Shown piece by piece: positions 5,142 to 22,745 of a stretch of 24,356 nucleotides of DNA. Position 1 is the stretch's first letter; each line of letters begins with the position of its first letter. The translations under genes and the position numbers were made by a program. This stretch comes from a virus. The notes beneath the pieces are model-generated. The model was not told the DNA's origin and searched no databases. It worked only from the letters and a program-made list of their open reading frames with translations. Location of the stretch: positions 1 through 24,356 of IMG/VR virus record IMGVR_UViG_3300042473_000613. One strand, 5' to 3'.

Positions 5142-5282
5142 ATGAATAATAAAGCCGCAAAGAAATTAAGAAGATTGTCTGTGTTTTTAGCTACCACAAA
5201 AGGTGGGACTATAGAAGATGCAGAAAGGATTTATAAAAACCTAAAGGTGGTTCATAAAGAAAATAAAAAAGCCCCTAAATAA
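5142..5282 (+). CDS. Small basic protein (46 aa), last gene of the replication unit
   Basis: ATG at 5142, ten bases after the previous stop, TAA at 5280-5282. The 46-aa product (MNNKAAKKLRRLSVFLATTK, then GGTIEDAERIYKNLKVVHKE and a Lys-rich end) is basic and helix-rich. The last codons and stop lie inside the hairpin of the terminator at 5270-5291, which fixes it as the end of the rightward unit. A Lys/Arg-rich N-terminal helix could bind nucleic acid. I do not recognise a family. Confidence 0.65.
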   Translation: MNNKAAKKLRRLSVFLATTKGGTIEDAERIYKNLKVVHKENKKAPK

Positions 5283-5291
5283 ATAGGGGCT
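5270..5291. terminator. Shared convergent terminator
   Basis: AGCCCCTA at 5270-5277 pairs with TAGGGGCT at 5284-5291 around a 6-nt loop. On the minus strand the stem is followed by TTTTTT, a strong signal ending the leftward paralog cassette. On the plus strand the trailing sequence is AATTAATTAA, a poor U tract, so termination of the replication unit there may be weaker. The left arm overlaps the end of the 46-aa gene. Confidence 0.8.
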
Positions 5292-5297
5292 AATTAA

Positions 5298-5561
5298 TTA
5301 AGCGTTTGCTGCTGCATTAATCTGTGTTACAGTAGAAGTCGTATAAAACAATACGGCTACTTGGTTTAAGCCAGTAGGAGCTACTTCAACTATTGAGTTC
5401 ATAGTTACTCCGTTTGCTACTGTACCTGTAGGAGCAGGGTAAGCCGCAATTGTGTTTACTGGGAATCCGTATGCAATACCAGAAGTTGCTGGAGTTCCGT
5501 TAGGGTTTAATAAAGCATATTGATTTCTTTGATATGCTGTAATTGATACTATACTTGCCAT
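5298..5561 (-). CDS. Small virion-type protein, paralog of its neighbour (87 aa)
   Basis: 87-aa protein rich in Ala, Thr, Val, Asn and Pro and almost without charge, a composition typical of beta-structured capsid or tail decoration proteins. It aligns end to end with the adjacent 114-aa protein: shared RNQY, NP-x-GTPATSG, VANGV-x-MNS, P-x-GLNQ and YT...TV-x-Q. It lacks the Thr-rich tail of that neighbour and ends at INAAANA. The two form a leftward cassette between replication and structural units, with a promoter upstream of the neighbour and a strong terminator just past this stop. The cassette could supply head or fibre decoration, or a lysogeny-expressed surface function. I do not recognise the fold; the paralogy is certain from the sequence. 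Confidence 0.75.
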   Translation of the reverse strand: MASIVSITAYQRNQYALLNPNGTPATSGIAYGFPVNTIAAYPAPTGTVANGVTMNSIVEVAPTGLNQVAVLFYTTSTVTQINAAANA

Positions 5562-5594
5562 TTTTTAATATTTTTAATTGTTTTTAAATTTTTT

Positions 5595-5939
5595 TTAAGG
5601 TGCTGCGGTTGTAGTAGTAGTGGTAGTAGGTGCTGCAGTTGTAGTTGTAGTAGTTGTAGTTGTAGTAGTTGTTGCAATACCACCGCCATTGATAGCTGTA
5701 ATTAATTGGGCAACAGTTTGATTGGTGTACAACTTTTCAGCTGGTTGGTTAAGACCGCTTGGGTACATAAGAATCAATGAGTTCATTTGTACTCCATTTG
5801 CTACCACAGTTGTTGGTTGTACTTGTAAGGTAACAGTAGGTAATGAAAATAAGACACCGCTAGTTGCAGGGGTGCCGTCAGGGTTTGTTAAATCGTATTG
5901 GTTTCTACGATAAACATAAACGGATAAGTGATTTGCCAT
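5595..5939 (-). CDS. Small virion-type protein with bare Thr-rich C-terminal tail (114 aa)
   Basis: Residues 1-88 are the paralog of the 87-aa protein downstream (RNQY, NP-x-GTPATSG, VVANGV, MNS, GLNQ). A Gly hinge (INGGG) then leads into a Thr tract, an AAP, a second Thr tract and a final AAP directly before the stop. The same (T)n-AAP tail ends the 128-aa protein encoded at 11611 and acts as linker or insert in three other structural proteins here, which is the main reason to call this a virion protein. The tail points to surface exposure or display. It is the first gene of a leftward cassette with a TAnnTTTG promoter. A role as capsid or fibre decoration is inferred. Confidence 0.75.
   Translation of the reverse strand: MANHLSVYVYRRNQYDLTNPDGTPATSGVLFSLPTVTLQVQPTTVVANGVQMNSLILMYPSGLNQPAEKLYTNQTVAQLITAINGGGIATTTTTTTTTTTTAAPTTTTTTTAAP
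5598..5673 (-). repeat. Thr-codon tract (ACN)n with two GCNGCNCCN punctuations
   Basis: Mixed ACA/ACT/ACC codons interrupted by GCA GCA CCT, and ending GCA GCA CCT TAA. The same words recur at 11968, 16236, 21819 and 22398. Codon mixing makes it an imperfect, not a pure, microsatellite. Confidence 0.85.
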
Positions 5940-5982
5940 TTTTTAATTGTTTTTTTTGTTATAAATTTTTTTTTGGGCAATA

Positions 5983-5990
5983 CAAATATA
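5983..5990 (-). promoter_or_regulatory. -7 box of the leftward paralog cassette
   Basis: On the minus strand 5990-5983 reads TATATTTG, an exact TAnnTTTG match. Transcription would begin near 5976, giving an A-rich leader of roughly 35 nt before the ATG at 5939. The -33 position is only T-rich. Confidence 0.6.
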
Positions 5991-6044: not shown

Positions 6045-6737
6045 ATGAAATTGATTGCGCCTAGTAATAAGGTTATTATAAAAGTGGATTTGGAAAGTAA
6101 GAATAGTCACACTTTTAAAGATGGTACAAAAATTAGACTAGAAAGGATATATGATAATTTTAACATGAGATATGTTAAGCCTGTTAATGGTATTGTGGTT
6201 AATGGAAAAGATATACCGGAAGGAGCTGAAATTCTTATTCATCACAATTCAACTCACGACACCTACAAGATATTTAATTATCAAAAGCCAACCACAGAGG
6301 CTTCATCGGATGTTCAATATTTTTCTATCCCAATAGAGGAATGTTTTTTATGGAGAGAAGGAAAAGGTTCTTCATGGAACGCTCTAAACGGGTTTATCAC
6401 AGCCTTGCGTATATTTAAACCATATACAGGAATTATGGAAGGAGTAGAGCCTCAATTAATGAAAAATAAGCTGTATATAACAAGCGGCGAATTAACTGGT
6501 AATGTGGTAACAACCGTAATCTCAAGTGATTATGAGATAATCTATCAAAATGATGACGGAACAGAAGGTAAGATTATTAGATTAAGATATTTTAACGATG
6601 GTAGCGATAGGAACGAAGTAATAGCCGTAGAGCATCATTTAACAGAAATGGTTATAAGCGGCGAGTTGTTAGTAGGCTATAGCAAATCAGATGCTACCAA
6701 ATTGGTAACAATTTCAACCCCAGAAATATGTCAATAG
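6045..6737 (+). CDS. Possible GroES-fold protein at the head of the structural unit
   Basis: 230-aa protein of unknown function. The N-terminal 80 residues (LIAPSNKVIIKVDLESKN, KIRLERIYDN, VNGIVVNGKDIPEGAEILIHH) recall GroES: a P-x-x-x-K-VI-V-K start, an exposed segment, then a G-I-V-V turn and a 'GAEILI' strand. It is longer than GroES, and residues 90-230 (FSIPIEECFLWRE and a beta-rich C-terminal part) match nothing I know. It opens the rightward packaging unit behind a promoter-like element and overlaps the next gene by 10 nt. It could be a co-chaperonin-like assembly factor or a structural beta-barrel. The GroES resemblance is weak; a clearer GroES is encoded at 17176. Confidence 0.55.
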   Translation: MKLIAPSNKVIIKVDLESKNSHTFKDGTKIRLERIYDNFNMRYVKPVNGIVVNGKDIPEGAEILIHHNSTHDTYKIFNYQKPTTEASSDVQYFSIPIEECFLWREGKGSSWNALNGFITALRIFKPYTGIMEGVEPQLMKNKLYITSGELTGNVVTTVISSDYEIIYQNDDGTEGKIIRLRYFNDGSDRNEVIAVEHHLTEMVISGELLVGYSKSDATKLVTISTPEICQ

Positions 6738-7119: not shown

Positions 7120-9165
7120 ATGTACGAAAAAATTGAAGGAGGAACTATAATTGATGTTCAAGGTTTAATGTGCAATTTACCTCCGGAAGGTTATGTTTAT
7201 AATATAATAACAAAGCAGTTAGAGCATAGAGGGGTGTACGAAAGGTCTAAAAATAAAGAGGAGCAATATTGGAAAAGAATCGCAATGCCTAGTTGGTATT
7301 CAGATACGATGAAGAAGTGGGATGAGTTTGACAAAAAGAAAAAGGACGACGAGTCTGAATTTTATGACGAAAAGCTTGAAGAATTTAAAAGACAAGAGTG
7401 GGATAGAAGATTGAATGGATTTTGGTATATGAATAATGGCGTTCCGTTATATTTAACGGGGATGCATTACTTATATTTACAATGGTGGTCAATAGATATT
7501 GGTTATCCTAAATTCAGGATTCCAGACTTGGAAAAGTTCTATTTTATGGATTATTGTATTCAAGACCCATTGTGTATGGGGATGCTTGAAGTAACTAAAA
7601 GGCGTTTTGGTAAATCATTTGTGGCGGGATTGTTTGTTACCGAATATACGACTAGGACTAAAATGACCAATGGAGGTATTCAGTCTAAAACGGGTTCTGA
7701 TGCTAAAAAATTCTTTGCCAAAACAGTGGTAAATCCATTTAGAAGATTGCCTAAATTCTTTAGACCAGAATACGATATGTCTTTGGGGGTTAATCCAAAG
7801 TCAGAAATGAGATTTCAAAAAACGAATGTAAGAGGTAAGAAAGCGGAGGAAAATGTAGATAAAGATGAATTGGGTTCAGTTATTGACCACCAATCAGCCG
7901 ATACGGTTGCCTATGATGGACAGAAGCTACACAGATATGTGGCGGATGAGTGTGGTAAAACTACTGAAGTGAATGTCTATGATAGACACGAGGTTGTGCG
8001 TTATTGCTTATTAGATGACGAAGGTCAAATCATTGGTAAGGCGCTTTATACAACTACGGTAGAGAAACTTACAACTGAAAAGGATGGAGTTCAAGCAGCT
8101 TTTAAGTTATTATGGGAAGAAAGTAATCAAGATAAAAGACAAGAAAATGGAACCACCTCTAGCGGTCTTTATAGATTTTTTATGTCTGCAAAGCGTACAA
8201 GAAACTTTGACGACTTTGGATTCCCAGACCAAGATAAAACATTGGATCAGATTTTAGCAGATAGGGAAACGGTTAAAAATAACCCAAGAGCGTTATCTGC
8301 TCGTATTAGAAAAGAGCCGCTAACTATTGACGAAGCTTTTAGTACAGATTCCGATAAGTGTATTTTTAATGTAATGAACATAGGCGCAAGGGAGCTTTCT
8401 TTAAAAGAAAACCCAGTATTAAAGCGTCATGTTTATTTCTATAGAGATATAGATCAAGTAGTTAGGTGGAGAACTATAACAGACAAAGAGCAAGATTTCC
8501 ATTGGGTAATTACTCAATTTCCACCAAAGGGAGAAGAGAATAAGCACAAACATGACTTGTCATCTAGGAAGCCAACTAGAACAGATGACGGAGCAATAGC
8601 GATTGATGGTTATAGCAATAGTCAAGGTGGTAAATATGGTTCAAAAGCATCTGCATGGATTGGAAGAAGATATAATTTATTAGACCCATCAAATACAGGG
8701 AAAGCAATTGGGCATTTGTACGGCAGACCTCAAATCAAAGAAACCTTACACGAGCAAGTAATGTTAGCCGCTGAATTTTATGGTTATCAAGCTTGGTATG
8801 AGCATAATAGTGATGATTATCTTTCTTATTTTAGAGATAGAGGAAGGGTTGGTTATTTAGGTTCTTATCCTTTTGGAGCAATGGACCCAAATAAAAGAGA
8901 TGCAGATAGACACAAGGGATTCCCAACAACGCCATTTAGTTTAACCAAACAGACAGATGTCGGGATTATGTATTTTGAATATCACATAGATTCTATAGAT
9001 TTTGAAAACTTATTAGAAGATGCGAAGCAATTTGATCCAAATAATAGAACAGAATTTGACCAAACGGTATCATTTTTAATGTTATTAGTTTGCTTAATGG
9101 AGCCTGTTCAGAAACAACAAATGAAAGAACCTTTGGTAAAAAGTTACAGTCCCAGCTTTAATTAA
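7120..9165 (+). CDS. terL: Terminase large subunit
   Basis: 681-aa DNA-packaging motor. The ATPase domain has a Walker A-type loop in EVTKRRFGKSFVAG (about 157-170), the KRRxGKS form common in phage terminases. Walker B with the catalytic Glu is YVADECGK (about 273-280), and a coupling-type YTTT segment follows near 308-311. The C-terminal nuclease (about 485-660) shows acidic clusters: AIAIDGYSNSQGG near 492-504, WYEHNSDDYL near 559-568 and the late YFEYHIDSIDFENLLED region. The length is normal for TerL. It translocates DNA into the procapsid through the portal encoded next and cuts the concatemer. The N-terminal 90 residues are charged and Lys/Glu-rich. There is good confidence in the family, less in each nuclease residue. 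Confidence 0.93.
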   Translation: MYEKIEGGTIIDVQGLMCNLPPEGYVYNIITKQLEHRGVYERSKNKEEQYWKRIAMPSWYSDTMKKWDEFDKKKKDDESEFYDEKLEEFKRQEWDRRLNGFWYMNNGVPLYLTGMHYLYLQWWSIDIGYPKFRIPDLEKFYFMDYCIQDPLCMGMLEVTKRRFGKSFVAGLFVTEYTTRTKMTNGGIQSKTGSDAKKFFAKTVVNPFRRLPKFFRPEYDMSLGVNPKSEMRFQKTNVRGKKAEENVDKDELGSVIDHQSADTVAYDGQKLHRYVADECGKTTEVNVYDRHEVVRYCLLDDEGQIIGKALYTTTVEKLTTEKDGVQAAFKLLWEESNQDKRQENGTTSSGLYRFFMSAKRTRNFDDFGFPDQDKTLDQILADRETVKNNPRALSARIRKEPLTIDEAFSTDSDKCIFNVMNIGARELSLKENPVLKRHVYFYRDIDQVVRWRTITDKEQDFHWVITQFPPKGEENKHKHDLSSRKPTRTDDGAIAIDGYSNSQGGKYGSKASAWIGRRYNLLDPSNTGKAIGHLYGRPQIKETLHEQVMLAAEFYGYQAWYEHNSDDYLSYFRDRGRVGYLGSYPFGAMDPNKRDADRHKGFPTTPFSLTKQTDVGIMYFEYHIDSIDFENLLEDAKQFDPNNRTEFDQTVSFLMLLVCLMEPVQKQQMKEPLVKSYSPSFN

Positions 9166-11610: not shown

Positions 11611-11997
11611 ATGGCAAATGCAACTAAAATATTAATCAGACTGACTAAATTTAGTTCAAAAATTAGTAATGTTATTGATTGCACAGCGCAATTCAATGCA
11701 GCAGATAGTTTTTATCAAGATTTATCAGGATGGGATGTAGCCGTAGTTCAATTAGTAAACCCCGGAACTACTATACTTTTTAAAACAACCAATGACGATG
11801 GTTCTGTAACAAGTCAAGTATTGCCTGCACCAGAAGTGCCTGAATATTGGACTACAGTTTTAGGAGTTAATTTAACAACAAAAACAGATGTATCATCGTT
11901 AGCAACTACGGGTATTGTTAGTTTTGGTATTATAGGAAAGTACTTGCAATTAATTGCTGCTGGTGCAACCACTACTACTACCACTGCGGCACCTTAA
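11611..11997 (+). CDS. Small virion-type protein ending in a Thr-Ala-Pro tail (128 aa)
   Basis: 128-aa protein between portal and scaffold genes. Residues 1-118 are beta-rich with few charges after the basic start (ATKILIRLTKFSSKISNV; GWDVAVVQLVNPGTTILFKT), which fits a compact head decoration or head-tip protein. The last nine residues are TTTTTTAAP, and the gene ends GCG GCA CCT TAA, nearly the same nucleotides as the end of the 114-aa protein at 5595. Its body shows no evident similarity to the 5298/5595 pair. The position inside the head gene cluster supports a virion role. The identity of the fold is unknown to me, and receptor binding, glycan carriage or decoration are all possible. Confidence 0.75.
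   Translation: MANATKILIRLTKFSSKISNVIDCTAQFNAADSFYQDLSGWDVAVVQLVNPGTTILFKTTNDDGSVTSQVLPAPEVPEYWTTVLGVNLTTKTDVSSLATTGIVSFGIIGKYLQLIAAGATTTTTTAAP
11968..11994 (+). repeat. Short Thr-codon tract with Ala-Ala-Pro end
   Basis: Six mixed ACN codons followed by GCG GCA CCT and the stop codon. It is the shortest member of the five-tract family in this window. Confidence 0.8.
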
Positions 11998-13216: not shown

Positions 13217-14626
13217 ATGGCAGGAATACCTACCTCGAATATTTTGCAGCCGGGTGCTATCTCGTTGCAAACACAGAATAGGCAACTTATGGTTGACCTA
13301 CAATTATTAACTCCTCAATATTACAAACAATATACTGAAAAGTATGGTAATGAGGATTTTACATGGTGGTTAGCCGCTCATAGCGGTATGGAAGAAGTTA
13401 AAAACCAAAACTTTTTCTGGTTTGAAAACAGAGGTAAATTAATGCCTGCTGTTACAAATAACGGAACAGTAGCTGCTGCCGTTGGCGCAACTATTACTTT
13501 AACTTTAGGAGCAGAGGCTTACTACAACAGTGGTACTCAAACTCCTTTAAGAGTTGATGAAACCTTGCGTGTTGCATCTTCAAATATTGAAGGTGTTATT
13601 TTATCAATTAATAGTACTACTCCGTATGCATTTACTTTCACAGTTGCTCCTAAATTAACAACTCAAAGATTCGCTTCTGCAGGTTCAACTGACTTGTTAG
13701 CTGGTGAGGTTTTATTATTTGGTGGTGACGCAGACGCTGGTGAAGCTTCTACTCAAATCAATCCTTTAATCCAATTGGATGAAAGATATGATAACAACAT
13801 TACGCAAATTCGTGATGGTTGGAGCAATACCGATTTAGCTCAAATGGCTGATACTTTTTATGAGTATCCTGTTTCTGCTGATATGGCTGCTAATGGCGTT
13901 AGTGCTTTCACTTACAAAGGAATGTACAAGACTCTTGTTCGTTTCAAGAATAATGTTGAAGCAAAATTAATGCGTGGTAATGCTCAAAACAATACTGCAA
14001 TTAATAATTCTGTAGGTACAGAAGGTATTATCCCTAAAGTAGTAGCTGATGGTGAAACTGTAGGATATACTCCGGGTACTTTGGATATTGCTAAATTGCA
14101 TGAAATCACTCGTATTATGGATGTTAACGGTTGTGCAAAGCAATCTGCTTGGTTAACTGATATCTTCCAAAGACAAGACTTCAGTGATGGTATCTTCGCT
14201 GCTTACCCAGCTGGTGCTTTCGTTTATGGTCAAGGTGAAAAATCAAAAGAAGCTTCTGTTGCTTACGGATTCCAAGAAATCTTCATTGATGGATATTTAT
14301 TATCTGTTAAGAAGTATTCTCAATTCAACACAGAGGTTACAACTGGTTTAACTCCAAATGTAGATTACTTCCGTAATTTCGGTTTAATCTATCCAATGGG
14401 CGAAACAAAGGATAGCAGAACTGCTCAAGCATACAAGAACATCACAGTTATGTACCAAGAGCCGCCTAAAGGTGGAACTGTTGGTAACGGTATTCGTGTA
14501 TGGCAGTTTGGTGGTGGTTCTCCTAACCCAACTGATGGTACAATGACAAACCAAATCGCAATGATTACATATCGTGCGACTCGTGTTTGTGCTGCGAACC
14601 AATTCATCATTGTTCAAGGTAACTAA
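13217..14626 (+). CDS. Major capsid protein
   Basis: 469-aa protein with the size, position and composition of a HK97-fold major capsid protein. It is rich in Ala, Gly, Thr, Asn and aromatic residues and low in charge clusters. Blocks reading like capsid segments are MVDLQLLTPQYYKQYTEKYG near 30, WWLAAHSGMEEVKNQNFFWF near 52-71, a beta-rich A-domain region (AAVGATITLTLGAEAYYNSG), and YPMGETKDSRTAQAYKNITV near 394-413. It follows the putative scaffold and precedes a strong hairpin, so it can be expressed at high level. Its codons look more often C- or G-ended (for example GGT and ATC) than in neighbouring genes, as expected for a very abundant product. There is no decoration domain or Thr tract. 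Confidence 0.8.
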   Translation: MAGIPTSNILQPGAISLQTQNRQLMVDLQLLTPQYYKQYTEKYGNEDFTWWLAAHSGMEEVKNQNFFWFENRGKLMPAVTNNGTVAAAVGATITLTLGAEAYYNSGTQTPLRVDETLRVASSNIEGVILSINSTTPYAFTFTVAPKLTTQRFASAGSTDLLAGEVLLFGGDADAGEASTQINPLIQLDERYDNNITQIRDGWSNTDLAQMADTFYEYPVSADMAANGVSAFTYKGMYKTLVRFKNNVEAKLMRGNAQNNTAINNSVGTEGIIPKVVADGETVGYTPGTLDIAKLHEITRIMDVNGCAKQSAWLTDIFQRQDFSDGIFAAYPAGAFVYGQGEKSKEASVAYGFQEIFIDGYLLSVKKYSQFNTEVTTGLTPNVDYFRNFGLIYPMGETKDSRTAQAYKNITVMYQEPPKGGTVGNGIRVWQFGGGSPNPTDGTMTNQIAMITYRATRVCAANQFIIVQGN

Positions 14627-15681: not shown

Positions 15682-15689
15682 TATATTTG
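15682..15689 (+). promoter_or_regulatory. -7 box starting the connector/tail unit
   Basis: TATATTTG, an exact TAnnTTTG match right after the terminator at 15635-15668. Transcription would start near 15696, 12 nt before the ATG at 15708. The -33 region falls within the terminator arm and lacks TTTG, so strength is uncertain. Confidence 0.5.
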
Positions 15690-15707
15690 GGATATAAAAA
15701 AAGCATC

Positions 15708-16538
15708 ATGAACATAGATGATATGTACAAAATTTGTCAGTATGCTATAAACAAGAGCCAGAACGGGTATCTTACTAGTTCTGAATTTAATTTATTAGTA
15801 AATCAAGCACAAACATCGTATTTAGATTATTTGTTAGGCGAGTTTCAGCAATATCAATATGGCAGAGCGCAAGCTAGAGTTTCATATAGCCAAAATGAAG
15901 ATATAAGACAAAGATTATCTCCATTAATTACAGAAACAACACTTTCAATAAACGGAACAGGAATTGCATCATATCCATCTGATTATGTTCAAGCAGATGC
16001 AATGAGAACATCAGCATTTACAAGAGTTAGATTTGTTCAACAAGATAGTTTATATTCTTACTACAACAGCACTATAGACCCTATTGCTACAAATCCTATT
16101 TATCTTATAGAGCCAAATGGTTTTAAGTTTTACCCAGTAACATTAGGTTCGGCAGTTTTGACTTATATAAAAAATGCACCAGAAATGATTTGGGGATATT
16201 GTTTAGATGCTAATGGAAGGCAAGTGTATAATCCAACAGCTCCACCAACAACAACGACTACAACAACCGCTTCGCCAACAACAACGACTACTTCAACTAC
16301 ATCTACTACATCAACAACAACGACTACTACTACATCAACAACTACAACAACTACAGCGGGACCAACAACTACAACAACTACATCTAGTTTAAATTGTATT
16401 ACTTATAGTATTCAGCCAATATGGTATGATGTGGATTTATTAGAGATAATAGCTCGTACTTTAAAGTTAGTAGGCGTAAGTTTACAAATAGGACAAGTAG
16501 AACAATATGCTAATCAAATTACCCAACAAGGACAATAA
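15708..16538 (+). CDS. Connector-type structural protein with Thr-rich insert (276 aa)
   Basis: A TTG at 15687 would extend the frame by seven residues, but it lies within the -7 box, so the ATG at 15708 is the start. Residues 1-176 (MNIDDMYKICQYAINKSQNG; GIASYPSDYVQADAMR; SAVLTYIKNAPEMIWGY) and 228-276 (IQPIWYDVDLLEIIARTLKL; QIGQVEQYANQI) read as one compact protein of the connector type. Its normal continuity, YLDANGRQVYNP to IQPIWYD, appears broken by the 51-residue Thr/Ser/Ala/Pro segment at 177-227. The helical C-terminus with a WxDVDLLEIIAR motif resembles short-tailed phage head-tail connectors of Bacteroidota from memory. It shares the TAATG overlap with the next gene. The insert would be a surface loop. 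Precise role unproven. Confidence 0.7.
   Translation: MNIDDMYKICQYAINKSQNGYLTSSEFNLLVNQAQTSYLDYLLGEFQQYQYGRAQARVSYSQNEDIRQRLSPLITETTLSINGTGIASYPSDYVQADAMRTSAFTRVRFVQQDSLYSYYNSTIDPIATNPIYLIEPNGFKFYPVTLGSAVLTYIKNAPEMIWGYCLDANGRQVYNPTAPPTTTTTTTASPTTTTTSTTSTTSTTTTTTTSTTTTTTAGPTTTTTTSSLNCITYSIQPIWYDVDLLEIIARTLKLVGVSLQIGQVEQYANQITQQGQ
16236..16388 (+). repeat. Internal Thr-codon tract inserted in the connector-type gene
   Basis: About 51 codons, mainly ACA/ACT/ACG with interspersed Ser (TCA/TCT), punctuated by CCA-containing TAPP, ASP and AGP. It is flanked on both sides by ordinary coding sequence in the same frame. The repeat words ACAACAACGACT and ACAACTACAACAACT recur in the tracts at 21819 and 22398. 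Confidence 0.9.
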
Positions 16539-17175: not shown

Positions 17176-17448
17176 ATGACACCAATTAGAGATTTAGTAT
17201 TAGTAAAACCATTTATGGCGGATGAAATTACCGAAGGCGGACTTTATATCCCTGAAAATTATAGGGAAAGAAGCAGTAAGGCGCAAGTAGTAAAAGTAGG
17301 TAATGGAACGGCTAAAGTGAAAATGGAAGCCAAAGTGGGAGATGTTGTTTTCCATATTAAAGGCGCAGGAGAACCATTTGTAATTGATGGGGAATATTAT
17401 TATTTAATTCGTCAAAACGATATATTATCTTACGTTTCAAATAATTAA
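17176..17448 (+). CDS. groES: Phage GroES-like co-chaperonin
   Basis: 90-aa protein, almost the standard GroES length. The opening TPIRDLVLVKPFMADEITEGGL carries the PxxDxVxVKP strand and then the mobile loop EITEGGLYIP, matching the GGI/L tripeptide that binds GroEL. Later it has AQVVKVGNG, VGDVVFHIKGAGEPFVIDGE and a terminal DILSYV in place of the usual DILAIV. It would cap the host GroEL to help fold a phage structural protein, as T4 gp31 and related phage proteins do. It sits between two connector-type genes in the structural unit, so capsid or neck assembly is the likely beneficiary. The call is strong; which protein is folded is unknown. Confidence 0.9.
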   Translation: MTPIRDLVLVKPFMADEITEGGLYIPENYRERSSKAQVVKVGNGTAKVKMEAKVGDVVFHIKGAGEPFVIDGEYYYLIRQNDILSYVSNN

Positions 17449-18230: not shown

Positions 18231-21200
18231 ATGCCAATAATAAATAATCCATTTAACGGTAAACTAAATTTAGATGTTGCTGAATACAGAATTAGCAATG
18301 GTGACTATTTAGATGCCTTAAATATAACGAAAGACGCAGAAGGCAAAGGTCAAGATAGAGTTATTTCTAATATTTTAGGTAACTCTCAAATAAATTATAC
18401 TTTACCAGCAGGTACTAATAAAGTTATTGGTTTTTATGCCGACAAGGTAAGGAATAGAGCCTATTATTTCGTTTGGAATAGTGGTGGTTACAATAGCATT
18501 TTGTATTATGATTTAAATACAGAAATAGTATTTAAGGTTTTAGAAAGTAAAACAGATAGCGATGGTGTTGATATTTTAAGTTTTAACCCGTCTTACAAGG
18601 TTTTGTCAGTTAATCTATATTATAGAGATGACGAAGGTGATATTTTATTTTTTAATGATGGATTAAATCCACCTAGAAATATAAATGTATTAGCTAATTA
18701 TGGAACATCTTGGAAAGCTGAATATTTAACTGTTATCAAAGCGCCTCCTGTAATGCCACCAAAAGTGGTTTACGAAAGTGAGGATAACTCAAACTTTACA
18801 ATTAATAATTTAAGAAATAAGTTATTTCAATTTTCATATAGGTATGTTTATGATAACAATGAAAAATCGGTATGGAGTTCAAAAAGCATAGTCCCATTGC
18901 CGCAACAGCCAACAATAGAACTTACAGATGTAAATTTTAGAGATAATGCAAGAATATCAATATCGGTATCAACTGGTGGCGTAAATGTAAAAAAAATAGA
19001 ATTTTGTTTTAGAGAAACATATACTTTAGGAACTAGCGATTGGTATTTATTAGCTCAAATAGACAAGGCTGTTGATGTTGTTGCAGATAATGACATTTAC
19101 ACATACAAGTTTTTAAACGATCAGATTTATTCTGTATTAGATGTAATTGATACAGCGCAGTTGCAAGATTGGGTTCCTCAAAAAGCAAATGCAGCTGAAT
19201 TAGCTAATGGTAATGTTTTATTATACTCTGGAATTACAGAGGGCTTTAATAAAATTCAAATGGATTTAGAGCCAGCAAGCACTCAATATATTGTTGACGG
19301 ATATTTCATTGACATCTGCGGTATTTTGTTTTTTGCTACTTGTAATGGATTAGATAGCGGTAGCAACAGTACGATTATGAAGGTTTTTGTATATGGCACA
19401 GGTACTAATACAAGTGGTATTGTTACTACTTTAAATAACCCATCAGGTATATATAAAATAAACGCAATTAATGCTAATGGTAGCGATATTAGCGCTTCAT
19501 TTCAATATAATTCCGTAACGCCATTGCTAGTGTCTAGTTTGCTAAATGGCATATCAACGGCACTTCAAGCGGCTGGATGGAATCAGGTTAGCATAGTAAA
19601 TAATGTTTTAACCGTTTCATATACAGCAGTTGCGGGTGGCGCTACCTTGTTATCTAGTGGCGTGGCTTATATATATGTAGCGGGTCAGCCAGATAATACA
19701 ACCCTTGCAAATGCATGGAGTTCAGGTTATCAATATGGACTACAATATTTTGATGCCGAAGGTAGAACAATAGGAGCGCAAGTTGATGTGAATGGGGATA
19801 TAACAAATGCCTCTCTACCTCTTAATTTTGGTTCTAGTTTTACTACAGTGTCAGAGCCATATATTATATACCCCGGTTTTGAAGCTAGATTTCCTAAAGT
19901 TTATTTATTTATTAATAATATACCGCCTTTAGATGCTATTTATTATCAAGTTTTAAGGTCTAATAATACCACTTATAACAAAAGATTATATTGGATAAGC
20001 GATTCGGCTTATTCTAGTATTGTTTCAGTAGGAAGTACCGAGCCAAGATATATTTTTGTTAATGTAAAAAATATAGAAACATATAATAAGCAAATAAGCT
20101 CTACTTCTAATGTGGTTTCTTATAATTATACAGAAGGAGATAGGGTTAGATTTTTAAGAAGGTATGATGTTGGAAACACTGCCGTTGCATTATCATCACA
20201 GCCTAGTCAATATGATTATGAAATAGTTGGTACGGAGGCTACGGTTCAATACAATATTGAAAATTTACCACCAATAGCTTTTGATAATAATACTTATACA
20301 GCAACAGGTAATTTTTTAAAAATAAGATATCCATCTAACGACATAGGCATAAATTTTAATTTTAATGGTAAAGCGGATTTTCAGCATTATGAAATATTTA
20401 TTTATAACTATACATCAAATTCAGCAGCTACTCAAAGGACATTTTTTGAATTTGGTAAGTGTTTTGGGATATTAAATCCGGGTACAGCAAATAGGCTGCA
20501 CATGGGTCTTATTAGATCGCAAACAAGCGTTCTTCCTGCACAAATAGATATAACAAATGGTGATTTATTTTATAGAAAAAGAAATGTTCCGTATGGTGAT
20601 AATTATAATTTCTTATCAAATTCTTTAAACATAATACCGCCCATTATTCCATTAGTTTTACCATATAATGTTAGTTTAAATATATCTGTGGATAGGGTAA
20701 TAAATAATGCATCTTATGAAATTAAATCTCAACCAAGTTCGCAAGTAAGCGTTTCTGTTGCAAGTTATCCAACCTTTGCAGACACTACTTACTTTTTTTA
20801 TAATAAATCAGTAAATCCTAGTATAATAAGAATTGTAGGAAGCTTCTCTGCAAATTCTGCTTATGAAGGGTGTTCTTTATCTATGTTTGCGCTTGTTTGT
20901 AACAATTCAGCCACCCCGAAATATACGGTATCGCTATTGCCAACCACTGTTAATTCATTATTGCAAGATACTAGTCATATTTTTGAAATAGACAAAAGAA
21001 TATCTATACCAGCAACCTCAAGAGTTTGGATTGTAGTACAAATATATAATCCAACTAGCGGGATGATTGATGTGACATTAAGTTCTTTTAATTTTGATTT
21101 TAATATTGTAAAGGATAATACCATTGATATTATAGAAAGTAGTTTTAACGATACATATAATTTGGTTACAAATAGTAATGGCAGACCATCTGTGGTAGAT

Positions 21201-22178
21201 GAAAATGCAGCTAAAAGATATTTCCCAACACTAATAAGGTTTGGTCAAGCATATCAATTTAATACCAATATAAATGGTACAAATAGATTTTATTATGAAA
21301 ACTTTGATGAGTACGACAGAAGCTTTGGAGATGTAATGCGATTGCATGTTAGAGATAGATATTTGAAAGTGTATCAGAAATTTAAGGTTGGTAATGTGCC
21401 TATTTTGACACAGATAGTAAAAGATAGCGTTAATAATCCATTACAGGCAAATACAGATACTTTAATTAATAAAATTCAATATTACGCGGGTGACTATGGT
21501 ATTGGAGATGCAGCTACTAGTCTTGCTTGGAATAACTTTGCAGATTATTTTGTAGATAATTATAGAGGCGTTGTTTGTAGGTTAGCTCAAGATGGCATTA
21601 CTCCATTAAGTATTATTTATGGAACTAATGCATTTTTTGTAAAAGAACTTGCAGCCTATAGGCAAGATTTGAACAATGGATATAACCCAACCTTATACAC
21701 AGGCAATCCATGTATTTATGGGGTATTTGATGCTTATACAAATAAGTATATCATAGCAATGGAAGAAATTAATAGATACTCTGATTGTAATTATAATGGA
21801 GGAAGCGCCTTGTCTTATACAACTAGTACAACAACTACAACAACTACAACAACTACAACGACTACAGCAGCGCCAACCACAACGACTACAAGTACAACAA
21901 GTACAACAACGGCAGCACCAGTGGCATATACAATTGATTCATTTGCAACAGGTACATCGATTCTTGCTTGTAGTACCGGAAGCCCATCAGTTCCTATTTA
22001 TGCATTACCGGGATATACGGTTCCAATTGTTACAATGATTTTCTATGATAGTCCAAGTTTGACTACTCCTTATGTTGGTGGGGTGGGATGGCGTAAATTT
22101 ACATATAATGGTGTTATCTTTTATGCGGGAGAAATTGATATTAATGGAGAACTTACTAATTATGTAACTTGTCCTTAA
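18231..22178 (+). CDS. Very large tail-type protein with Thr-rich linker and C-terminal module (1315 aa)
   Basis: 1315-aa, beta-rich protein, high in Asn, Tyr, Ser, Ile and Val. The N-terminal part (about 1-320: NGKLNLDVAEYRISNGDYLD; ADKVRNRAYYFVWNSGGYNS; RDDEGDILFFNDGLNPPRNI) repeats short beta elements ending in Tyr, Asn and Gly, consistent with a propeller-like tail tube or hub, similar in idea to T7 gp12-type proteins. Residues 320-1190 are more varied beta sequence. A linker at about 1197-1230 is Thr-rich with two AAP marks, followed by a C-terminal 85-residue module (about 1231-1315) with a Cys pair (ILACSTG...YVTCP) and motifs FYDSPSLTTPYVGGVGWRKF. It is the largest gene of the structural unit. 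A tail-tube/adhesin role is inferred, not proven. Confidence 0.65.
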   Translation: MPIINNPFNGKLNLDVAEYRISNGDYLDALNITKDAEGKGQDRVISNILGNSQINYTLPAGTNKVIGFYADKVRNRAYYFVWNSGGYNSILYYDLNTEIVFKVLESKTDSDGVDILSFNPSYKVLSVNLYYRDDEGDILFFNDGLNPPRNINVLANYGTSWKAEYLTVIKAPPVMPPKVVYESEDNSNFTINNLRNKLFQFSYRYVYDNNEKSVWSSKSIVPLPQQPTIELTDVNFRDNARISISVSTGGVNVKKIEFCFRETYTLGTSDWYLLAQIDKAVDVVADNDIYTYKFLNDQIYSVLDVIDTAQLQDWVPQKANAAELANGNVLLYSGITEGFNKIQMDLEPASTQYIVDGYFIDICGILFFATCNGLDSGSNSTIMKVFVYGTGTNTSGIVTTLNNPSGIYKINAINANGSDISASFQYNSVTPLLVSSLLNGISTALQAAGWNQVSIVNNVLTVSYTAVAGGATLLSSGVAYIYVAGQPDNTTLANAWSSGYQYGLQYFDAEGRTIGAQVDVNGDITNASLPLNFGSSFTTVSEPYIIYPGFEARFPKVYLFINNIPPLDAIYYQVLRSNNTTYNKRLYWISDSAYSSIVSVGSTEPRYIFVNVKNIETYNKQISSTSNVVSYNYTEGDRVRFLRRYDVGNTAVALSSQPSQYDYEIVGTEATVQYNIENLPPIAFDNNTYTATGNFLKIRYPSNDIGINFNFNGKADFQHYEIFIYNYTSNSAATQRTFFEFGKCFGILNPGTANRLHMGLIRSQTSVLPAQIDITNGDLFYRKRNVPYGDNYNFLSNSLNIIPPIIPLVLPYNVSLNISVDRVINNASYEIKSQPSSQVSVSVASYPTFADTTYFFYNKSVNPSIIRIVGSFSANSAYEGCSLSMFALVCNNSATPKYTVSLLPTTVNSLLQDTSHIFEIDKRISIPATSRVWIVVQIYNPTSGMIDVTLSSFNFDFNIVKDNTIDIIESSFNDTYNLVTNSNGRPSVVDENAAKRYFPTLIRFGQAYQFNTNINGTNRFYYENFDEYDRSFGDVMRLHVRDRYLKVYQKFKVGNVPILTQIVKDSVNNPLQANTDTLINKIQYYAGDYGIGDAATSLAWNNFADYFVDNYRGVVCRLAQDGITPLSIIYGTNAFFVKELAAYRQDLNNGYNPTLYTGNPCIYGVFDAYTNKYIIAMEEINRYSDCNYNGGSALSYTTSTTTTTTTTTTTTTAAPTTTTTSTTSTTTAAPVAYTIDSFATGTSILACSTGSPSVPIYALPGYTVPIVTMIFYDSPSLTTPYVGGVGWRKFTYNGVIFYAGEIDINGELTNYVTCP
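21819..21920 (+). repeat. Thr-codon linker tract before the C-terminal module
   Basis: Includes ACAACAACT three times in tandem at 21828-21854, then ACG/ACC/ACT codons with Ser (AGT), with GCA GCG CCA and GCA GCA CCA punctuation. It separates the long body from the Cys-containing C-terminal module. Confidence 0.9.
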
Positions 22179-22190
22179 ACCTTAATAAAT

Positions 22191-22745
22191 ATGAATGTAT
22201 TAATTATTTTAAATTCGGGACAAGGCGTTAGTTTAGGGGTAAATTTTACTTTAGCAGCAAATGTTGGAGTAGTAGTACCTTCAACAGCAACTTTAAGCGA
22301 GTTGCTTGCAGGTAAGCCTGTCGTTGTAGATAATGGGGCTACAAGTGTTACCGTAACTTCTTTGGGTGTTTGTACTAATGCATTGATATTACCAATTTCT
22401 ACAACTACTAGTACAACAACTATTCCTCCTACAACCACCACAAGTACAACAACTACTAGCACAACATCTACAACAACTACATCTACAACATCTACAACAA
22501 CAACTACAACATTAGCGCCAGCTTACAATTATTACACATTTACTCCTTGTTTAGGAGGTTCGCCAAGTAATTATAGAAGTTTATTATCGTTAGCGTTATA
22601 TGATGTATATGCATTACAAGCGTCACCGCCTGATAGGATATGTTATACAATTACGAGTATAACAGCACCATCTAATGTGAACAACTTACCAACAATATAT
22701 GGACCTAAAATAGATTGCAATGATACAGATTGCACGCAACCTTAA
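22191..22745 (+). CDS. Two-domain Thr-linker virion protein (184 aa)
   Basis: 184-aa protein right after the large tail gene. Residues 1-69 form a compact beta domain (MNVLIILNSGQGVSLGVNFT; ELLAGKPVVVDNGATSVTVT) with one Cys. Residues 70-110 are a Thr/Ser/Pro tract (IPP near its start, LAP at the end). Residues 111-184 are a second domain with Cys in TPCLGGS, RICYTI and the acidic IDCNDTDCTQP end. The layout, a head-group domain, a flexible Thr linker and a Cys-rich module, matches a small fibre or adhesin attached to the virion. Its tract shares sequence words with the preceding gene, and the module resembles that gene's end in kind (aromatic, Cys-bounded) rather than in alignment. Receptor binding is inferred. 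Confidence 0.65.
   Translation: MNVLIILNSGQGVSLGVNFTLAANVGVVVPSTATLSELLAGKPVVVDNGATSVTVTSLGVCTNALILPISTTTSTTTIPPTTTTSTTTTSTTSTTTTSTTSTTTTTTLAPAYNYYTFTPCLGGSPSNYRSLLSLALYDVYALQASPPDRICYTITSITAPSNVNNLPTIYGPKIDCNDTDCTQP
22398..22520 (+). repeat. Thr/Ser-codon linker tract
   Basis: About 41 codons dominated by ACA/ACT with TCT, AGT and AGC Ser, ATTCCTCCT near the start and TTAGCGCCA at the end. Short imperfect units such as TCTACAACAACTACA recur within it. Confidence 0.9.

Follow-up and report, generated by a model that had tools for sequence, protein, structure and literature searches.

What is encoded by two short leftward genes that lie, in an uncultured virus, between rightward replication genes and rightward structural genes? 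The locus belongs to an IMG/VR record that is 24,356 bases long, the whole of which was analysed and is called the window here; the two genes (A and B, table 1) have SSB-type replication genes on one side and the terminase and portal genes on the other, all of them rightward. A reading made from the sequence alone had described the pair as a minus-strand tandem duplication in which only one copy carries a tail, placed between replication and structural units and bounded by a TAnnTTTG box upstream and a hairpin with six T's downstream, and each of these points was borne out by our analysis. It had also called the cassette a moron and had suggested a decoration protein in versions with or without display, and these two ideas fared differently (below).

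A cassette of two paralogues with its own signals

When A is used as the query, B is found with 51% identity (E 8e-23), so the motifs common to the two are not chance resemblances. The tail of B, TTTTTTTTTTTTAAPTTTTTTTAAP, is a threonine run interrupted by AAP, and A is naked. Median pairwise dN/dS is 0.20 for A and 0.10 for the B body, which indicates that both are real genes under purifying selection. The box and the hairpin are likewise kept among relatives. The TAnnTTTG box is present in 46 of 46 distinct upstream regions of the clade, compared with 11% of random 130-mers, and it lies 41–54 nt from the ATG in 45 of these and 24 nt from it in L175, while a GCCCC...GGGGC-T6 hairpin recurs downstream of the cassette. 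As judged by these consensus signals, which are conserved across the clade, the cassette has its own putative promoter and terminator.

Table 1. Features of the cassette and its surroundings in the window
Feature	Position	Strand	Evidence or remark
Convergent ORF, 46 aa	5142..5282	+	Sequence; stop codon inside the cassette's terminator loop
Intrinsic terminator, GCCCCTA/TAGGGGC stem + T6	5265..5291	-	Stem 5271-5291, T6 5270-5265
Gene A, 87-aa naked family domain, promoter-distal	5298..5561	-	ORF, relatives, AlphaFold2 model
Gene B, whole ORF, 114 aa	5595..5939	-	ORF
Gene B, C-terminal Thr/Ala-Pro tail	5595..5663	-	Variable length among relatives with near-identical bodies
Gene B, family domain (first ~88-92 residues), promoter-proximal	5664..5939	-	51% identity to A, E 8e-23; alignment
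TAnnTTTG promoter-type box, TATATTTG	5983..5990	-	51 nt upstream of the ATG of B
First gene of the divergent late unit	6045..6737	+	Weakly GroES-like (phrog_13932, E 1e-4); in relatives, the constant neighbour on the right of the cassette
Terminase large subunit	7120..9165	+	phrog_6681, E 4e-73

A clear GroES co-chaperonin gene is also present in the late module of the window (17176–17448; NCBIfam E 6e-20), and the gene at 13217–14626 is presumed to encode the major capsid protein.

Gene A has no significant profile or sequence match in Pfam, PHROGs, NCBIfam or the PDB sequences, and the profile matches of B are low-complexity ones that fall on its Thr tail. The AlphaFold2 model of A (pLDDT 86.7) has five strands and a C-terminal helix; Foldseek gives no match to it at E 0.001 or better, and the PDB folds nearest to it are PH-like and LytTR-like, weak, with Z 3.7 or less. 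No known decoration protein has a significant sequence or fold match to the domain. A link to gp36 of phage crAss001 was tempting through the PH domain of that protein (PMC10172136), and it was rejected because hhalign, run against single sequences, gave probabilities of 0.1–0.3% for crAss001 gp21, gp29 and gp36. The window has no DNA match in 50,697 phage records, and its terminase is less than 60% identical to those of all isolates, the best listed being 27–29% identical and belonging to Flavobacterium phage elemo, Cellulophaga phages and a few other marine phages. The kinship of the terminase points to Flavobacteriia, of freshwater or of the Baltic, as likely hosts. Searches of cultured phages by tblastn with A, a single-type member and a deep-branch member found no member of the family, nor was one present among the ORFs of phi38:1, elemo and crAss001 within the genome stretches examined, and none was confirmed in bacterial genome contigs.

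A constant place and an exchangeable content

A search with A finds 65 loci. Since the use of A would be circular in judging how constant the cassette is, relatives were then collected with the terminase, independently of the cassette, which gave 78 loci of which 77 cover the site (the contig of L191 ends before it). A family member is present at the site in all 77, on the strand opposite to the terminase and always flanked by the SSB side and by the p6045-p6728-terminase-portal block, and no empty site was seen among them. The deeper relatives L133, L134 and L135, whose terminases are 58, 30 and 43% identical to that of the window, each have a single member opposite to the terminase, and L242 has a single member too; in L134 the family member sits among glycosyltransferase-like genes. 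Occupancy of the same place in every relative is what the sequence-only reading itself had held to be incompatible with a moron, and a moron in the sense of a differentially present insert is thus not supported. The cassette does resemble morons, as characterised in PMC2920897, in having its own promoter and terminator signals and in being set apart from the neighbouring units; it differs from them in never being absent, and so is a conserved component that is swapped and not an extra. What varies is the form present, a single gene or a pair: relatives exchange the unit and do not gain or lose it.

One gene is present in 23 relatives and two in 54 relatives and the window. In 55 of 55 pairs the promoter-proximal copy is the extended one and the distal copy is naked, and 23 of 23 singles are naked; many of these contigs are near-duplicates, and the distinct bodies number 27 for B, 36 for A and 19 for the single type. 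A, B and the single type form largely distinct groups in the family tree, in which many forks are unresolved; an old duplication thus seems to be the origin of the pair. Three copies in tandem are found in at least one contig, L054 (positions 1–860), of which the middle one joins an A-like start (MATIVAITAYRRNQYD) to a B-like body and tail and looks recombinant. L026 and L032 both come from contig IMGVR_UViG_3300032323_002596, where the same region occurs twice in opposite orientation, probably as an inverted assembly duplicate.

On the terminase tree (58 distinct sequences) the state changes between single and pair at least nine times (bootstrap range 9–10). The clearest example is L184, with a single gene, against L185, with a pair: their flanking DNA is 97.8% identical along 4.2 kb to one side of the cassette and 98.0% identical along 3.2 kb or more to the other, and in between, starting a little ahead of the promoter box and ending at the terminator loop, the two differ throughout. 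An assembly chimera is unlikely to be behind this swap, since each state is seen again in another metagenome; L200 has a single gene that is 98% identical, and L186 has the same pair as L185. Another case is seen between the window and L137 (terminase 93% identical), where homology ends at the end of A and restarts at the start of B. Whole cassettes, promoter to terminator, are thus exchanged as a unit among close relatives. As a separate observation, L188 (4980–6001) is longer than its relatives by about 600 bp in the interval from the p6728 gene to the terminase gene.

The C-terminal extensions

When relatives are grouped by the same B body sequence, the tail is seen to shift in length by whole Thr/Ala-Pro units, with 21, 24 and 30 residues in L212, L181 and L211 and, in another set, 28 and 37 residues in L189 and L158; these differences rest on assemblies, and short-read assembly may distort repeat length. 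A quite different extension is found in L175, in one case so far, where the proximal copy is a 401-aa protein with the family domain followed by a module of about 310 aa in place of the Thr tail. The model of this module is a β-helix (pLDDT mostly 60–83 over residues 95–310) that matches the tail fibres of phage 7-7-1 (Foldseek E 2e-5; VIA Z 21.0, rmsd 2.7, 242 residues aligned); only the β-helix part of the 401-aa model was used, because residues 1–92 have pLDDT under 50 and are unreliable. The same module recurs in other aquatic phages behind unrelated, tail-fibre-like N-termini, including those of collagen-like fibre proteins (an alignment that mixed family and fibre sequences was misaligned and was discarded). 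Since this mobile fibre module stands behind other anchors elsewhere, the family domain appears, in at least this one genome, to occupy the position of a fibre anchor. The B tails and the β-helix fusion together indicate a small domain that is able to bear a C-terminal part, which would presumably be displayed.

Outside the cassette, the Thr-Ala-Ala-Pro tag is almost confined to the late structural module. Among 69 matches in the contigs of ten relatives, 64 fall either inside the cassette or, on the terminase strand, in the 17 kb that follow the terminase start; four more lie within 17.3 kb and one is far off, and a control with the reversed pattern gave no matches. The tagged proteins of the window include two, encoded at 15687–16538 and 18231–22178, that match virion structural families. 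In these two and in 22191–22745, all in the late module, the Thr-rich tracts are internal linkers that precede short C-terminal domains. The tag is widespread in virus contigs, mostly as an inter-domain linker and sometimes at the C-terminus; for the TTTTTTAAPTTTTTT tract we count 47 linker and 19 C-terminal cases. This tract occurs in many virus contigs (L245–L323), up to about 270 kb in size, and mostly joins one domain to the next in large adhesin-like proteins. The literature, when searched for Thr-rich tails in phages, yielded nothing specific. The gene right after the portal gene (window 11611–11997; L136–L213) also has alternative versions, which are either about 117–144 aa long, with or without a Thr/AAP tail, or 211–218 aa long with a different C-terminus; standard A/B pairs accompany the short version, and single-type genomes have either.

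A possible virion decoration cassette

The cassette probably encodes a virion surface protein, and on balance we favour the view that this is a decoration protein, most likely of the capsid, that has a naked and a displaying form and whose genes are exchanged together. The order rule in the pairs of 54 relatives and the window and the fibre module of L175 lend support to the earlier idea of decoration with and without display. Homology, the order rule, the constant place, the swaps, the fibre-module fusion and purifying selection are all read from the sequences, and decoration is the most economical account of them; we infer a virion location, the capsid over the tail, the level of expression and the mixing of forms, and for this reason we say, with the same leaning, that the cassette works like a decoration or head-fibre protein. 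A small β-rich anchor domain would be bound, most likely, to the capsid surface, and the leftward promoter and terminator would give it a large output independent of the rightward late operon. Where a genome has two genes, both paralogues would have the same kind of anchor, A being plain and covering sites, and B displaying its C-terminal extension, a flexible Thr/Ala-Pro stalk in most genomes and a β-helix fibre in one. Plain and displaying subunits may then be mixed on one surface, or each paralogue may fill a type of site of its own, as the two head fibres of crAss001 do (PMC10172136). As the cassette is exchanged as a unit, one recombination could switch this surface from plain to another plain form or to plain-plus-display. 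Several points weigh against decoration: the anchor domain matches no known decoration protein significantly in sequence or fold, the β-helix fusion is a single case, the gene stands apart from the late operon and runs in the opposite direction, which is unusual for a structural gene, and Thr tags also serve as linkers, are of uncertain function and are found in many phages.

The best structural matches of the L175 extension are tail fibres and tailspikes, and at its C-terminus it matches the corresponding end of an annotated tail fibre, so the domain might instead be a tail adaptor at the base of a tail fibre or appendage, with B and the L175 fusion as tail appendages; we think this unlikely, as the capsids of other phages also bear fibres, the naked copy alone suffices in 23 relatives, and an own promoter would better fit a high-copy protein than a low-copy adaptor. 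Less likely still is a moron in function only, that is, an independently transcribed non-virion fitness gene (acting, for example, in host-surface change or superinfection exclusion): the promoter and terminator signals, the leftward position between rightward blocks and the swapping as a unit would all suit it, but the gene is never absent in 77 relatives, by eye it has no evident signal peptide or transmembrane segment, it is fused to a fibre module in L175, and it shares the Thr tag with structural proteins. A small nucleic-acid-binding or regulatory protein with a FlbD/LytTR-like β fold and helix, at which weak fold matches of A hint (small phage FlbD-like proteins, BFVD E 0.06; a LytTR domain, Z 3.4), is very improbable, since every fold match is below significance, basic residues are few, and a regulator would hardly be expected to bear C-terminal Thr stalks or a 310-aa fibre.

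The decoration reading can be carried a step further, to a version that we hold more tentatively, at slightly less than even weight: an obligatory but interchangeable display cassette of an uncultured clade, in which one promoter serves a displaying and a plain paralogue of one virion anchor, the display part is modular (a length-variable Thr stalk or a β-helix fibre), and the whole is traded between near-identical phages so that the surface type is switched. If this is true, decoration or head-fibre proteins have been identified for a widespread uncultured group of aquatic phages, and duplication, fixed order and exchange as a unit provide a simple genetic route to a mixed plain and displaying surface. 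The family domain would also be a natural N-terminal anchor to which large C-terminal parts can be fused, and surface switching could be measured here at 98% genome identity.

Other phages display Ig-like domains on a fraction of their virion subunits through frameshifting. The cassette would be like these in mixing plain and extended subunits of one anchor, but it uses gene duplication, and its extension is a Thr stalk or a β-helix. The phi29 head fibre gp8.5, T4 Hoc, T5 pb10 and N4 gp17 have different folds and are known as single genes, whereas the cassette has its plain and displaying forms as separate paralogous genes. The resemblance to these four proteins would lie in a part that is displayed and is thought to help the phage adhere to its host; decoration proteins as a whole have several folds unrelated to one another, and for some of them a role in host adhesion is proposed (PMC7602432). 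A close parallel is in crAss001, a podovirus of Bacteroidetes, whose head fibres are made of gp21 (a trimer) and gp29 (a dimer) and are received by two kinds of hexon pocket (PMC10172136). There, as is proposed here, two small proteins each bind the capsid through a short N-terminal part and display the C-terminal part. The crAss001 proteins have no sequence relation to the cassette family, are not described as paralogues of each other, as A and B are, and are encoded on the same strand as the portal and major capsid proteins, whereas the cassette is opposite to the terminase. The authors of that work expect that analogues, as yet uncharacterised, exist in other groups (PMC10172136).
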